DNA of 64,000 bases from Methylobacter sp. (GTDB taxonomy: Bacteria; Pseudomonadota; Gammaproteobacteria; Methylococcales; Methylomonadaceae): positions 1 through 64,000 of the forward strand of contig JAUXTH010000101.1 of the NCBI GenBank assembly GCA_030679035.1, read 5' to 3'. Each line of letters begins with the position of its first letter. The stretch's first letter is position 1. Positions 2,439 through 32,230 of this stretch are shown here, in pieces. The notes beneath the pieces are model-generated. The model saw nothing but the letters and a program-made list of their open reading frames with translations, did no database searches and had not been told where the DNA came from. Position numbers and translations under genes: made by a program.

Positions 2439-2473
2439 TTGACATATTATTTGTTTTTGTTCAGCAGTCAAGA

Positions 2474-2928
2474 ATAGAACGCAGATGACGCTGATGGTTA
2501 TGATTAAATAAGATTTTTCTTTTTTGAAAAAACCTTGCGTTTAAACTCTGGCTTCTTTCCATAATTTAACAGCAAACCGACTTCAATTTCTGTGGCTTTG
2601 AGATAGTTGATTAATTGAAGTTCGTGCTCCTTACATAAGGTTTCAGCCGTTTTTAATTCAACAATTACGCATCTATCAACGACTAAATCAGCAAAATACT
2701 CTCCTACTTCTTTATCTTTATAATAAACTTTTATCTGTTTTTGTTTCTCAACGAACAAACCCATCGCGACAAGATCAATGAATAATACATTCTCATAAAC
2801 TTTCTCTAAAAAGCCATAGCCCAACGTATTGTATCCTTTGTAGAATGCCTCAATAATTTGTTCGGTAATTTCTGAGTATTTATAATTATCTGCGTTAATC
2901 ATATTCATCAGCGTTATCTGCGTTCCAT
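2474..2928. mobile_element. Inverted-repeat-bounded element carrying a GxxExxY gene
   Basis: The left arm (2474-2495) and right arm (2907-2928) are 22-base inverted repeats matching at 20 of 22 positions, built on GAACGCAGATGACGC. They enclose a single AT-rich gene. The same arm occurs at both ends of a 93-bp element at 27432-27524, which also shares the sub-terminal GATTAAATAAGATTTT just inside the left arm. The element sits exactly between cheD and cheB. No transposase is encoded, so mobility is inferred from the shared ends at two loci. No target-site duplication is obvious to me. Confidence 0.7.
2504..2908 (-). CDS. GxxExxY-family protein (PD-(D/E)XK-like)
   Basis: About 134 residues from the ATG at 2908 (another in-frame ATG at 2902). 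It carries the family signature GFLEKVY, and a nuclease-like core [14 protein letters not shown] in which Asp and Glu-x-Lys resemble the PD-(D/E)XK active site. The open frame extends to a TTG at 2950, but those extra codons are the inverted repeat of the host element, so I reject that start. The gene is much more AT-rich than the che genes around it. Family function is not established to my knowledge; the nuclease fold is an inference from the motif. It is carried as cargo of the 2474-2928 element rather than being a chemotaxis gene. Confidence 0.85.
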
Positions 2929-2943
2929 TGTATTTGATGTTAC

Positions 2944-3543
2944 CTACCAAAAATCAGCCTGATCCGAGGGCTGCGGGGTGTGTACGGCTGTATTTTTCTT
3001 CAGGAAATGTTGCTCCTGGTTAATGACAGCCTGTTGTTCAGCATGTTCAATGTTTTTAACATACACGGAAAAATCGCTCGCCAGGAAAAAAATGTTGCGT
3101 CCTATGTGGCCGCCCAGACCGGAGGCTACCAACGGTATACGTTCGGTGCTCAAAAAAGTTTTAATAAATTCGCAATTGACCGCGCCTATGGATTGTCCGC
3201 CGCGTAATTCATTGCCCAGTTTTAGCACATCGCCGCCGCCAAAGGCTTTGGCTTTTAAGTGTATGCGTTGCGCACCCTGTTTTAGCATTTGGTTAATCAG
3301 CAACTCCATCGCATGGATGCCGTAGCGTCCGCCTTCCGAACCTAACAAGGCTGCATTATGGGCCGGATGCTGCTGCGCCAGTAAAAAATGATTCATGCCG
3401 ATCACGCGATTAACCGGATCGTACAAACACGCTGCGACGCAGGAGCCCAGCAAGGTGGAAATAATTTCATCTTTTTTGGTCACATAACTTTCGCCGGGGT
3501 CGATGATGACCCGCGGCAGTCCCTGGTACTGGCCTACTTGCAT
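2944..3543 (-). CDS. cheD: CheD chemoreceptor glutamine deamidase
   Basis: CheD deamidates receptor glutamines and so tunes receptors together with CheR and CheB. The 199-residue product has the conserved catalytic region TLLGSCVAACLYD with the nucleophilic Cys, followed by GMNHFLL with the catalytic His, and the LKAKAFGGGDVL and IGAVNCEFIKTFL blocks typical of the family. Its ATG at 3543 lies inside the 3' end of cheR (10-base overlap), so translation is likely coupled. It has about 40 residues after the core, usual for proteobacterial CheD. Confidence 0.94.
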   Translation of the reverse strand: MQVGQYQGLPRVIIDPGESYVTKKDEIISTLLGSCVAACLYDPVNRVIGMNHFLLAQQHPAHNAALLGSEGGRYGIHAMELLINQMLKQGAQRIHLKAKAFGGGDVLKLGNELRGGQSIGAVNCEFIKTFLSTERIPLVASGLGGHIGRNIFFLASDFSVYVKNIEHAEQQAVINQEQHFLKKNTAVHTPQPSDQADFW

Positions 3544-4376
3544 GGTTTTTGATAAATGGAGGGGGTGATCATGGACAATTCAGTTTTAATGCTGTGCAAG
3601 GTTTCAGAATGGCTGATAAAAAAATAGCCGCCCGGCTTTAACGCCGAAATAACGCGCTGGACTATATCCTGTTTGGTTTCCGTATCAAAATAGATCAACA
3701 CATTGCGTAAGAAAATAACATCGAATTGCCCGAGGCTCTTGGGCAGCGGGGTTTTAAGATTGATCTGGCCGAAACTGACGCGGTTTCTTATTTTTTCATC
3801 GACGCGGAAATAGCCATCCTGAGAGCGTACGCCTTTCAGGCAGTATTTATCCAGATAGCGCTTGTCCATGTTATCCAGTCTGTCCATCAAATAAGCGCCT
3901 CTACGCGCGGTTTCCAGCACCTCGGTATTGACATCGGAGCCGAAGATCTCCCATTTTCTCATGCCCAAGCCTTCGGCTAAGGTCATGCCGATCGAGTAAC
4001 TTTCTTCGCCTGTGGAACTTGCAGCGCTCCACAGGCGGAAATTATCGCCCCGCCAAGGTTTGATAATCTGTTCTTGAAGAAAATCAAAATGCTTGGGTTC
4101 ACGAAAAAAATAAGTTTCATTGGTGGTCAGTATATTGACCATCAATTGAAATTCGTGAGGGTGTTGTCCTGAATTGAGCAGTTGGTAGTATTGTCCGTAA
4201 GTTTGCAAGCCGTAGTGCAACAGGCGTTTAGCTAACCGGCTGGCCACCATGATTTTTTTTTCCGGTGCTAACGCGATGCCTGCGTGATCGTAAATTGTGC
4301 GCCTGAAATGGGCGAACTCTTCGGCGCTGATAGGTTCAAGACTGATAAAAAACTCCCTGCTTAATAAAAAAATCAA
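3534..4376 (-). CDS. cheR: CheR chemotaxis methyltransferase
   Basis: CheR methylates receptor glutamates using S-adenosylmethionine. The N-terminal helical domain is followed by the Rossmann methyltransferase domain, with NETYFFREPKHFDFL, the SAM-binding WSAASSTGEESYSIGM and VIFLRNVLIYFD. The product is at most 280 residues. The start is uncertain: the first in-frame start-type codon is TTG at 4376, and AGGGAG near 4355-4360 lies inside the frame just upstream of where homologous proteins begin, with no ATG or GTG at the right spacing. Either the TTG or a rarer codon near residue 12 is used. It is first in the minus-strand che group and divergent from the plus-strand group. Confidence 0.94.
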   Translation of the reverse strand: MIFLLSREFFISLEPISAEEFAHFRRTIYDHAGIALAPEKKIMVASRLAKRLLHYGLQTYGQYYQLLNSGQHPHEFQLMVNILTTNETYFFREPKHFDFLQEQIIKPWRGDNFRLWSAASSTGEESYSIGMTLAEGLGMRKWEIFGSDVNTEVLETARRGAYLMDRLDNMDKRYLDKYCLKGVRSQDGYFRVDEKIRNRVSFGQINLKTPLPKSLGQFDVIFLRNVLIYFDTETKQDIVQRVISALKPGGYFFISHSETLHSIKTELSMITPSIYQKPCK

Positions 4377-27431: not shown

Positions 27432-27524
27432 ATGGAACGCAGATGACGCAGATTATTAAGATTAAATAAGATTTTATTGAATCATCTGTGTTCATCACAT
27501 TTATCTGCGTCATCTGCGTTCCAT
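27432..27524. mobile_element. 93-bp MITE-like element with GAACGCAGATGACGC ends
   Basis: Perfect 22-base inverted arms at 27432-27453 and 27503-27524, with no gene inside. The arms match those of the GxxExxY element at 2474-2928, and GATTAAATAAGATTTT follows the left arm in both. It looks like a short derivative without a gene. Its right end overlaps the 3' end of cbiX-cbiC and supplies the last four codons (MERR) and the TGA stop. Confidence 0.75.
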
Positions 27525-29093
27525 CGCAATTGCTGAGCCATACTCAGCAAGCTGATTCACCGCATCGATCATCAAGCCGTTGACCACAGTTGCTGCCCAC
27601 GGCGACCCACCGCGTGTGCCGGTATTGGTGATGCGCGGCACTTGCAGGCAGCGTTTTAATTCGTCTTTCGACTCGCAGGTGCCGACAAAGCCGACCGGCA
27701 AGCCGATCACCAGTTGCGGCCGCCAGCCGTGTTCGCGAATCAGGCGCACCGCTTCCCTGATCGCCGTCGGTGCGTCGCCTATCGACAGTATGATGTTGTT
27801 GCCGAATTTTTCAAAGGCGCGTCGTATTCCGGCTGCGGAACGGGTGATGCCTTGCGTTTGCGCCATCAGCGCCGTTTCATGGTCATGCACGCCGCACCAG
27901 GTTTCGATGCCGAGTTGTTCAAGCAGCGCGCGCTTTAGGCCGGTCTGCACCATGGTTACGTCGGTCACCACGCGCTTGCAACGCAACAAGGCACGGATGC
28001 CGGTTTCGACCGCACCCGGCGAAAAATAAATGTCATCGACCGCGTTAAAATCGCCGCTGGTATGCACCAGCCGTTGCAGCACGGTCAGATGCGCCTCGGG
28101 AAAGACTGACCAGTCGCGTCCGGCAGCGATGATGCGGAAACTTTCGGCCTCTATCGGATGCGGCACGTAAGGCGCAAATTCTGTTGCAGCTTCATCTGCT
28201 GCGGCTTTTTCAAACAGTCCGCGCACCTGAAGATGATGGGGGCGTTGCGGTTCGCCGACCTGCTGTTCAAAGCCGACGATTTGCACCCGGTATTTACACA
28301 GCGAGCAGTTCATCTCCGCACGGCCTTCTACCGCTTCTTGCGCCCTGGCGATGATCACATCGGCCACGTTCGGATGCACGCCGAGGTAGCCTGCCTTGAG
28401 CACTTCCAGATCGGGTTCGCGTTCCTGCATCGCATCGGCGGCCTCATAAATACGCTTAACCAAGATGCCGTCGAACAGGAAAAACGGCACGACGATCAGC
28501 CGTGCGTGGCCCAGTTTAGCGGCGGCGCGCAGGCCGTCGGCGACCAGCGGCTTGGCCGTGCCTGAATAGCACACGTAGGACGCGCCAAAGCCCATGCCTT
28601 CTTCGATCATCCGCGCGAACTTGGCGACCTCGCCATTAGCATCGGGATCGGTGGTGCCGCGACCGACCAGCACCAGGCAAGTGTCGTCTCTGCGGACGGT
28701 TTTAGCCGATGTCGCTTCAGCTTCGACGATGCGTTGCTGAACCACTTGCAATAACAGCGGATGCAAACCCATCGGCGCGCCGAAATGAAAATCGATGTCG
28801 GGGTGTTCGCCTGCGAAGGTCAATAGTTCGCTGGGCATGTCGTTCTTGGCGTGGGTTGCGGCAAGCAATATGCCGGGTACCATGACGATTTGCTTGGCGT
28901 CAGCGCTTAGCTGATCGGTAATCGCCTGATCGATAGTTGGGCCGGCAAATTCCAGGTAACCGTGACGGACCACATGCTGCGGCGCGCGCTCTTTGACCAG
29001 TTCAACCAGCTGCTCGAACTCTCGTATGCCGTCGGCATCTCGGCTGCCATGACCTGCGATTACTATGCCGAATTGTTGTGTTTCAGCCTGCAT
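27510..29093 (-). CDS. cbiX-cbiC: CbiX-CbiC fusion: sirohydrochlorin cobaltochelatase / precorrin-8X methylmutase
   Basis: About 527 residues from the ATG at 29093. Residues about 5-260 are a two-domain CbiX chelatase ([20 protein letters not shown] with the metal-site His, and [20 protein letters not shown] in the second repeat), followed by the CbiX tail CSLCKYR. From about residue 305 the protein is CbiC/CobH, which moves the methyl from C11 to C12 ([20 protein letters not shown]-like [53 protein letters not shown]). The first and a late step of the pathway are thus joined in one polypeptide. It overlaps the cbiE stop by 11 bases. An upstream TTG at 29120 is a less likely start. Confidence 0.93.
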
Positions 29094-29821: not shown

Positions 29822-29993
29822 GGTTTTTCTGTCCACGAAAAGCACGAAAAATTGTAGGGTACGCTGTGCGTACCTTACGCTCGTTCCCAAGCTCCAGCTT
29901 GGGAATGCAGTCTTGGAAGCTCCAGCTTCCTGTCCTGTCTCGCGAAGCAGGAGCTTCGCGTACTGGGTTCCCAAGCAGGAGCTTGGGAACCAG
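29822..29993. repeat. Compound palindromic repeats between chlID and cbiE
   Basis: GTCCACGAAAAGCACGAAAA (29831-29850) is followed by nested palindromes of the TTCCCAAGCTCCAGCTTGGGAA family: GTTCCCAAGCTCCAGCTTGG at 29883, GGAAGCTCCAGCTTCC at 29918, CGCGAAGCAGGAGCTTCGCG at 29940 and GTTCCCAAGCAGGAGCTTGG at 29970. A close relative stands at 31907-32066. No gene is present. Confidence 0.8.
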
Positions 29994-31906: not shown

Positions 31907-32230
31907 CGCTCGTTCCCAAGCTCCAGCTTGGGAATGCAGTCTTGGAAGCTCTAGCTTCCCGTCCGGTACACGAAGCTACGACTTGCATGGATGCAGGAGG
32001 TAGAGCAACGCAGGAGCAGCTGCCGAGAGCTTCGCGCACTGGGTTCCCAAGCTGGAGCTTGGGAACCAGCAGCCGGAGTTTTTGGCTAGCAGAAACTGAC
32101 CGGAGTGCAAGCTTTGCTTGCCAAAGCAGGCGAAGCCTGCACTCCAGCGTCAAGGTCATTTTGGTGTTAATGGAATCTTGACAGCTATACGAATATTTTC
32201 GTGCTTTTCGTGTATTTCGTGGACAAAAAA
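31907..32230. repeat. Repeat-filled 334-base gap between cobN and chlID
   Basis: Contains a longer relative of the 29880 palindrome (31909-32066), then GCAGGCTTCGCC-like inverted sequence around 32107-32145 (GTGCAAGCTTTGCTTGC / GCAGGCGAAGCCTGCACT) and a CGTGCTTTTCGTG...TTCGTGGACAAAAA block at 32190-32228 matching 29822-29850. No gene is seen. The transcript from cobN to chlID must cross several strong hairpins. Confidence 0.75.

Follow-up and report, generated by a model that had tools for sequence, protein, structure and literature searches.

What is a small GxxExxY gene doing inside a chemotaxis operon, framed by a long inverted repeat? The window analysed here is a 64,000-nucleotide stretch of a Methylobacter sp. 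contig (JAUXTH010000101.1; the genome is G000 below), in which the GxxExxY gene (2504–2902, minus strand; 132 amino acids counted from the likely ATG, in a reading frame that stays open to 2950) sits between its upstream neighbor cheD (2944–3543) and its downstream neighbor cheB (1377–2438), all on the minus strand, with cheR (3534–4376, minus) also part of the context. A sequence-only reading of this region had described arms at 2474–2495 and 2907–2928 that match at 20 of 22 bases and enclose this gene alone, and both points are borne out: direct reading gives the same match, and no other open reading frame of at least 60 amino acids lies inside on either strand. The inverted repeat exceeds the 22 bp first described, with 31 of 35 positions matching between a left arm at 2473–2507 (plus), composed of the iterons ACGCAGATG and ACGCTGATG and a conserved inner part, and a right arm at 2895–2929 (minus), which has iterons of the same kind and overlaps the start of the GxxExxY gene; this 35-bp arm pair scores 25, compared with a maximum of 11.5 in ten shuffles. 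Outside the left arm, 2459–2467 (plus) reads GTTCAGCAG, a probable damaged left GTAACTAYTCAGC end that reads GTTACTATTCAGCAG in the copy at the same site in genome G083; no right outer GTAACTAYTCAGC-type end was seen at the che-site unit. A separate palindrome, cgcgactttagttgcgc...gcgcaactaaagtcgcg, can be recognized by eye at the window edge (1–45).

The encoded protein scores 127 bits against the TIGR04256 profile (curated cut-off 35) and 130 bits against PF13366, PDDEXK_3 (curated cut-off 22), and is a member of both families. At E ≤ 0.001 PDDEXK_3 is its sole Pfam domain and Transposase_17 is absent; the one open reading frame of at least 60 amino acids in the unit matches PDDEXK_3 alone, so no DDE transposase is encoded there, and the cargo is, as had been proposed, a PD-(D/E)XK-like protein and no known transposase. 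In an alignment of 53 family sequences E33, D72, E82, Q96 and Y100 are invariant and K84 is nearly so, giving the E, D, ExK, QxxxY pattern of a PD-(D/E)XK nuclease. An acidic pair with ExK and QxxxY is the family signature of Cas4/RecB-like PD-(D/E)XK nucleases, and we take the motif order of the window protein to be like that of Cas4/RecB. The family shares these motifs with the Cas4/RecB-like nucleases but differs from Cas4 in its length of about 130 amino acids and in scoring below the Cas4 cut-off (15.4 bits for the window protein, curated cut-off 22.7); the Cas_Cas4 profile finds weak matches in 29 of the 53 members, with a best E of 0.005. PADLOC returns weak matches to Cas4 and PDC-S02 and nothing else, PHROGs returns weak matches and none stronger, and a search of solved structures yields no convincing relative. 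Passages of one earlier paper record a gene annotated as cas4 by one program and as GxxExxY by another (PMC8934634). An end nuclease of the Cas4 kind with a short recognition motif would suit such arms.

The same arms bound a gene-less palindromic copy of 93 bp at 27433–27525, as first reported, which lies between two open reading frames and overlaps the 3' end of one of them by 16 bp. As single-stranded DNA it is predicted to fold into a long hairpin (−30.3 kcal/mol, z −10.2), and its ends and those of the gene unit are alike by eye over about 40 bp, beyond the arms. A 15-mer of the arm with up to 3 mismatches has 9 matches in the window where 1.96 are expected, and an 18-mer pattern with up to 2 mismatches has 163 matches in the genome against 1 for the reversed control (185 against 0 for a slightly wider pattern). 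Chance origin of these matches is excluded. G000 thus has a single GxxExxY gene and, depending on the pattern, 163–185 arm matches. A small palindrome like CCAAAAGTAGGCGCCTCTAGGCGA is inserted within iteron arms at L146 and L160 of this genome and at L047 of G015.

Comparison of occupied and empty sites between cheD and cheB in relatives, which the sequence-only reading had called for, shows that the unit behaves as an element. The cheB-cheD junction can be judged in 14 of 23 genomes of the genus, of which three are occupied by the unit (G000, G083 and G122, the last with a broken operon), nine are empty (G110, G042, G120, G123, G124, G065, G131, G132 and G125), one has a different insert (G121) and one a decayed relic (G015). 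Since the site is empty in nine of the 14, the GxxExxY gene is an insertion and no conserved part of the che operon, and in none of the genomes judged is it conserved in the operon without arms. The insertion is not recent, because the two further genomes that have it each stand for another species. G121, again another species, carries at a different site a copy that is 89% identical over 483 bp (2461–2943 in the window), with homology stopping near the arms. The other insert at the G121 che site (L120) is about 730 bp long, between cheB and cheD. The rearranged site in G122 (L446, contig C42) has a 2522-aa open reading frame between cheB and a truncated GxxExxY/cheD piece, of which contig C154 carries a second copy at 95% identity.

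Arms accompany the gene well beyond this genus. The survey comprises 184 loci, 10 of them without a full open domain, and yields 175 unique genes, of which 7 lie too near a contig end, leaving 168 testable genes from the family, phylum and named-genome scan samples combined. Enclosing inverted arms are present at 136 of the 168 and in 0 of 168 shuffles; the other 32 genes show no arms at the threshold used. The named-genome scan took the best 80 of 551 loci, from more than ten phyla by record titles and including one archaeon (Methanoperedenaceae), and leans to relatives of the window protein because that protein led the query. In this subset 58 of 74 testable genes have an enclosing inverted repeat at a score of at least 13.5, compared with 3 of 387 control windows obtained by shifts inside those loci; at a score of at least 18 the numbers are 40 and 0. 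The viral collection has two GxxExxY loci, and one query returned eight plasmid records. The pattern of a gene with enclosing arms is general across many bacteria and one archaeon, a spread over phyla that the sequence-only reading had not seen.

The arms themselves are built alike, as tandem units of about 9 bp with the consensus C-R-C-N-R-A-x, in which the last base x is T, G or A. Of 128 arm pairs, 104 have a period of 9 or 10 bp, and a search with no preset motif gives C.C..A as the most enriched three-base pattern, present in 122 of 128 arms against 47 in shuffles. That GxxExxY genes merely happen to insert near ubiquitous repeats could appeal to several genomes in which such repeats are common and the gene is absent, but it is already contradicted by the shuffles, by the match of arm class to protein clade and by the different repeat vocabulary at PF05635 genes (both described below), and we regard it as scarcely credible.

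The homology between related copies indicates where the unit ends. Gene pairs with at least 78% DNA identity give 40 alignments shorter than 700 bp and 14 of at least 1000 bp, the latter at shared sites, with none between. The boundary test uses 28 of the 40 short pairs, the others being without flanks or a scored arm pair, and the pairs are not independent; in these 28, the median offset of the alignment ends from the outer ends of the arms is 1.5 bp on one side and −10.5 bp on the other, and no alignment reaches further than 26 bp past the arms. Both ends lie within 40 bp of the arm ends in 16 of the 28; in the rest, one end or both fall within the element. One confined pair joins the genus of the window and a Bacteroidales contig, at 79% identity over 460 bp. 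Among 110 gene units, with lags of 1–14 and ends shifted by 0–9 bp, there is no target duplication beyond palindromic AT.

Some of the gene-less derivatives arose by internal deletion of a gene unit, at three sites, one of them common to four genomes with matching flanks and another common to two; the gene-less pairs within the loci (7 K and 3 E) are too few for a duplication test. Arms with a gene, homology ending near the arms, and internal-deletion derivatives support the pattern of an autonomous-looking element and its MITE that had been suggested from the window. That arms and gene go together, that homology ends near the arms, and that some gene-less copies are internal deletions is strongly supported, and gene and arms very probably constitute a mobile unit. 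The evidence points to an undescribed kind of mobile DNA; in the open-access literature searched, no paper was found that links GxxExxY or these repeats to mobile elements.

Dispersed copies are more often abundant where the gene is present, with more than 10 arm matches (four patterns) in 21 of 30 gene-bearing genomes of the family sample against 21 of 91 gene-less genomes (p=6e-6). Five arm-rich genomes have no GxxExxY gene (G110, G050, G102, G024 and G048). Arms independent of the gene had been named in advance as evidence against a gene-arm unit. Orphan copies do exist, also in gene-less genomes, but only as would be expected of gene-less derivatives, and 136 of 168 genes have arms.

A second layer is evident in the genus of the window, where many G000 units reach some 25–30 bp further out, to GTAACTAYTCAGC ends that in clear cases lie 24–35 bp beyond the arms. 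A GTAACTAYTCAGC-like end (up to 4 mismatches) lies outside 27 of the 52 G000 arms inspected, against about 6% in shuffles. Across 42 GTAAC-ended candidate units, which include some nested or spurious pairs, mean identity between the flanks is 0.54 at lag 8 and 0.24–0.37 at lags 2–7 and 9–13; seven of the 42 have perfect 8-bp target duplications, and the signal is there with or without iterons inside. Six loci in G000 (L142, L146, L156, L160, L164 and L167) are GTAACTAYTCAGC-ended units with exact 8-bp target duplications, and one perfect 8-bp duplication occurs in a Desulfuromonadales contig (L289). The GTAA start and the 8-bp duplication of this shell are IS66-like. The shell suggests a second mover in this genus, which may do some or all of the moving there.

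The main rival to a nuclease-driven unit starts from these ends: the units would be multiplied by a transposase of the DDE type that works in trans on outer ends like GTAACTAYTCAGC, with the nuclease as cargo. The 8-bp signal and its seven perfect cases are as this predicts, as are L164, where a CACGAAA-class element contains a GTAAC-ended unit that shows the duplication TATTTTTC, and eight near-identical E-type palindromes in G090 that sit, and have multiplied, inside another, larger repeated unit. Because G000 GTAAC units duplicate 8 bp and the G090 palindromes sit in another repeat, some copies have been multiplied by other movers. Against a passenger role for the family as a whole, only 4 of the 112 armed gene units from the phylum and scan sets have a GTAAC-like end within about 40 bp (shuffles give 1 of 112), and in the family set 4 of 22 do, all four in the genus of the window; the 110 gene units have no duplication, yet homology ends near the iteron arms; and arm class follows protein clade. 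The GTAAC shell was rejected as an explanation of the whole family on the 4 of 112 count, and we consider the passenger account unlikely, if still the strongest competitor.

Arm class was labelled by the commonest last base of the C-R-C-N-R-A-x unit in each element. Of the 136 arm-bearing genes, 135 enter the protein tree, with 63 T, 40 G and 12 A labels and 20 unlabelled, and the last unit base of the 115 labelled proteins fits the tree with two changes, the minimum for three states; 1000 label shuffles on this first tree need 35–51 changes, and an IQ-TREE tree likewise gives two changes, with SH-aLRT of 98 for the A and G clades. The nearest neighbor predicts the class correctly in 114 of 115 cases, in 110 of 115 once partners of more than 60% identity are excluded, and in 85 and 68 of 115 with the limit at 45% and 40%, where the nearest remaining partner often comes from another clade (chance is about 0.43). 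Genomes with two classes are consistent with this: in G065 (L051 and L138) and G049 (L038 and L377) the arms of every gene are of the class that goes with its own clade, and the same holds for each of the two genes at locus L269. Iterons of the CACGAAA class (the A class) also occur in the window at 29833–29849 (plus) and 32197–32222 (minus), with 108 in the genome, although its single GxxExxY gene belongs to the T class.

Because gene and arms are linked, part of the match between arm class and clade is co-inheritance. In the T and G classes the unit varies freely at positions 2 and 4 but retains its class base, a contrast that the search expression and labelling impose in part. Linkage accounts for some of the class match and not for this uneven freedom of positions, and the arguments for recognition are only the drift of the other unit positions and a match in trans. 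The trans comparison covers 19 genomes above the 10-copy limit, from the 30 that bear the gene; it includes G097, which has a broken gene (L035) with G-class arms, and leaves out G017, G020, G026, G043, G045 and G092, which have no clear arm class. In 13 of the 19 the dispersed copies are most often of the class to which the genome's own gene belongs (p=0.015), and the mean share of own-class dispersed copies is 0.65 where 0.43 is expected (p=0.0007), both by tests that ignore kinship. The commonest class differs from that of the gene in G015, G083, G039, G060, G106 and G097. Outside the genus of the window the effect in trans is weak: over 12 genomes the own-class share is 0.73 where 0.54 is expected (p=0.036), and the commonest class agrees with the gene in 9 of 12 (p=0.12). 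The suggestion that the GxxExxY protein may itself act on the arms gains indirect support from the agreement of arm class with protein clade.

The agreement of class and clade would also be expected if the protein were a selfish or defensive DNA-cutting nuclease and the arms its recognition or protection sites, with retention driving the link and homing-like spread by repair; repair-driven insertion would allow the lack of a fixed duplication, and there is the weak similarity to Cas4 profiles. The unit has only one open reading frame of at least 60 amino acids, however, and therefore no methylase or antitoxin partner inside; the PADLOC matches to Cas4 and PDC-S02 are weak; and inverted paired arms at the unit ends, together with internal-deletion derivatives, resemble the ends of an element. 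We think this improbable, and less probable than the passenger account.

A similar architecture surrounds an unrelated gene family. In the same genomes, inverted iteron arrays enclose PF05635 (23S_rRNA_IVP) genes in 14 of 25 testable cases and in none of the 25 shuffled ones, the set being 30 loci (L416–L445) of which 25 are long enough to test; G000 itself has no PF05635 match. The PF05635 arms have 7-bp units in 16 of the 18 with a score of at least 12, for example GTGAATG, AGGTTCA and GTTAGCG. Because an unrelated family shares the architecture with 7-bp units, the architecture does not depend on the GxxExxY nuclease; it is wider than that nuclease, and each gene family has a repeat vocabulary of its own. 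The available part of a paper on a TAACTGA heptamer (PMC4679880) makes no mention of 'intervening', 'S23' or 'nuclease'.

The PF05635 genes bring to mind the 23S rRNA intervening sequences that carry an S23/IVP four-helix-bundle protein, in which a small open reading frame likewise lies between inverted repeats, but the GxxExxY protein is unrelated and its arms have 9-bp units where the PF05635 arms have 7-bp ones; the unit in the window lies between che genes and encodes GxxExxY, not PF05635, and does not belong to these sequences. At the RNA level, the arms could pair in the transcript and the unit be cut out by RNase III, the protein having another role. The shared architecture at PF05635 genes is compatible with this, as is the position of the unit between che genes on the same strand, and intervening sequences end in inverted repeats and are cut by RNase III, according to portions of one paper (PMC4990558). 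Rfam, in contrast, has no match at the che site at its gathering threshold, the one gene-less copy examined (27433–27525) lies between two open reading frames, and pairing would not by itself account for a base-specific arm class. PD-(D/E)XK enzymes mostly act on DNA, which also counts against excision from RNA, and we judge an RNA-level origin very improbable.

Two systems of mobile DNA also offer parallels. For the REP/RAYT (TnpA-REP) system, whose transposase is related to IS200/IS605, excerpts of one study describe a gene with an inverted palindromic repeat on either side, the repeat numbering 37 to 427 perfect copies per genome in the case studied, compare protein and repeat trees, and state that the IS200/IS605 family makes no larger target duplications (PMC2817692). 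The GxxExxY gene likewise lies between inverted repeats of which the genome has many copies (one gene and 163–185 matches in G000), but its enzyme is a PD-(D/E)XK nuclease where RAYTs are Pfam Transposase_17, and its arms are arrays of iterons of about 9 bp where REPs are single GT(A/G)G-headed palindromes. The MITEs of DDE insertion sequences share with these units inverted ends and internal-deletion derivatives and, in the genus of the window, the GTAAC ends and 8-bp duplications; GxxExxY matches no DDE transposase, however, and most units tested have neither GTAAC ends nor duplications. On the best reading the arrangement is RAYT/REP-like, with a different enzyme.

A mobile GxxExxY unit that its own nuclease reads and moves, with the GTAAC shell as an addition, is as a whole the best explanation, to which we give a probability of a little under 0.6. 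The GxxExxY gene and its two inverted iteron arrays would form one mobile unit of a family found across bacteria and archaea. A Cas4/RecB-like nuclease would recognize C-R-C-N-R-A-x, with x set by the protein clade, in palindromic ends that are probably extruded as hairpins or single strands, and by cutting at these ends it would move or copy both its own unit and, in trans, the gene-less palindromes. Within the genus of the window the core in addition often lies inside a GTAACTAYTCAGC-ended shell making 8-bp duplications, presumably through a DDE transposase in trans, and the che-operon copy retains a probable relic of this shell on one side.

We tentatively extend this to a wider proposal, at somewhat less than even odds: an undescribed superfamily of mobile DNA whose movers are the GxxExxY nucleases. 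In it a Cas4-like end nuclease would read an iteron code of about 9 bp, with the last base as its specificity class, and disperse palindromes in bacterial and archaeal genomes. The superfamily may be a single branch of a broader architecture in which inverted iteron arrays enclose a small gene, and which the IVP family reached independently with 7-bp units. If this is true, a protein family known only by the name of a motif would gain a function, and repeats that occur tens to hundreds of times in many genomes of the survey would gain an origin. With a one-letter arm class that tracks protein clade, recognition is directly testable with short oligonucleotides, and if it is confirmed, a PD-(D/E)XK nuclease would join the RAYTs as an enzyme behind bacterial palindromic repeats.
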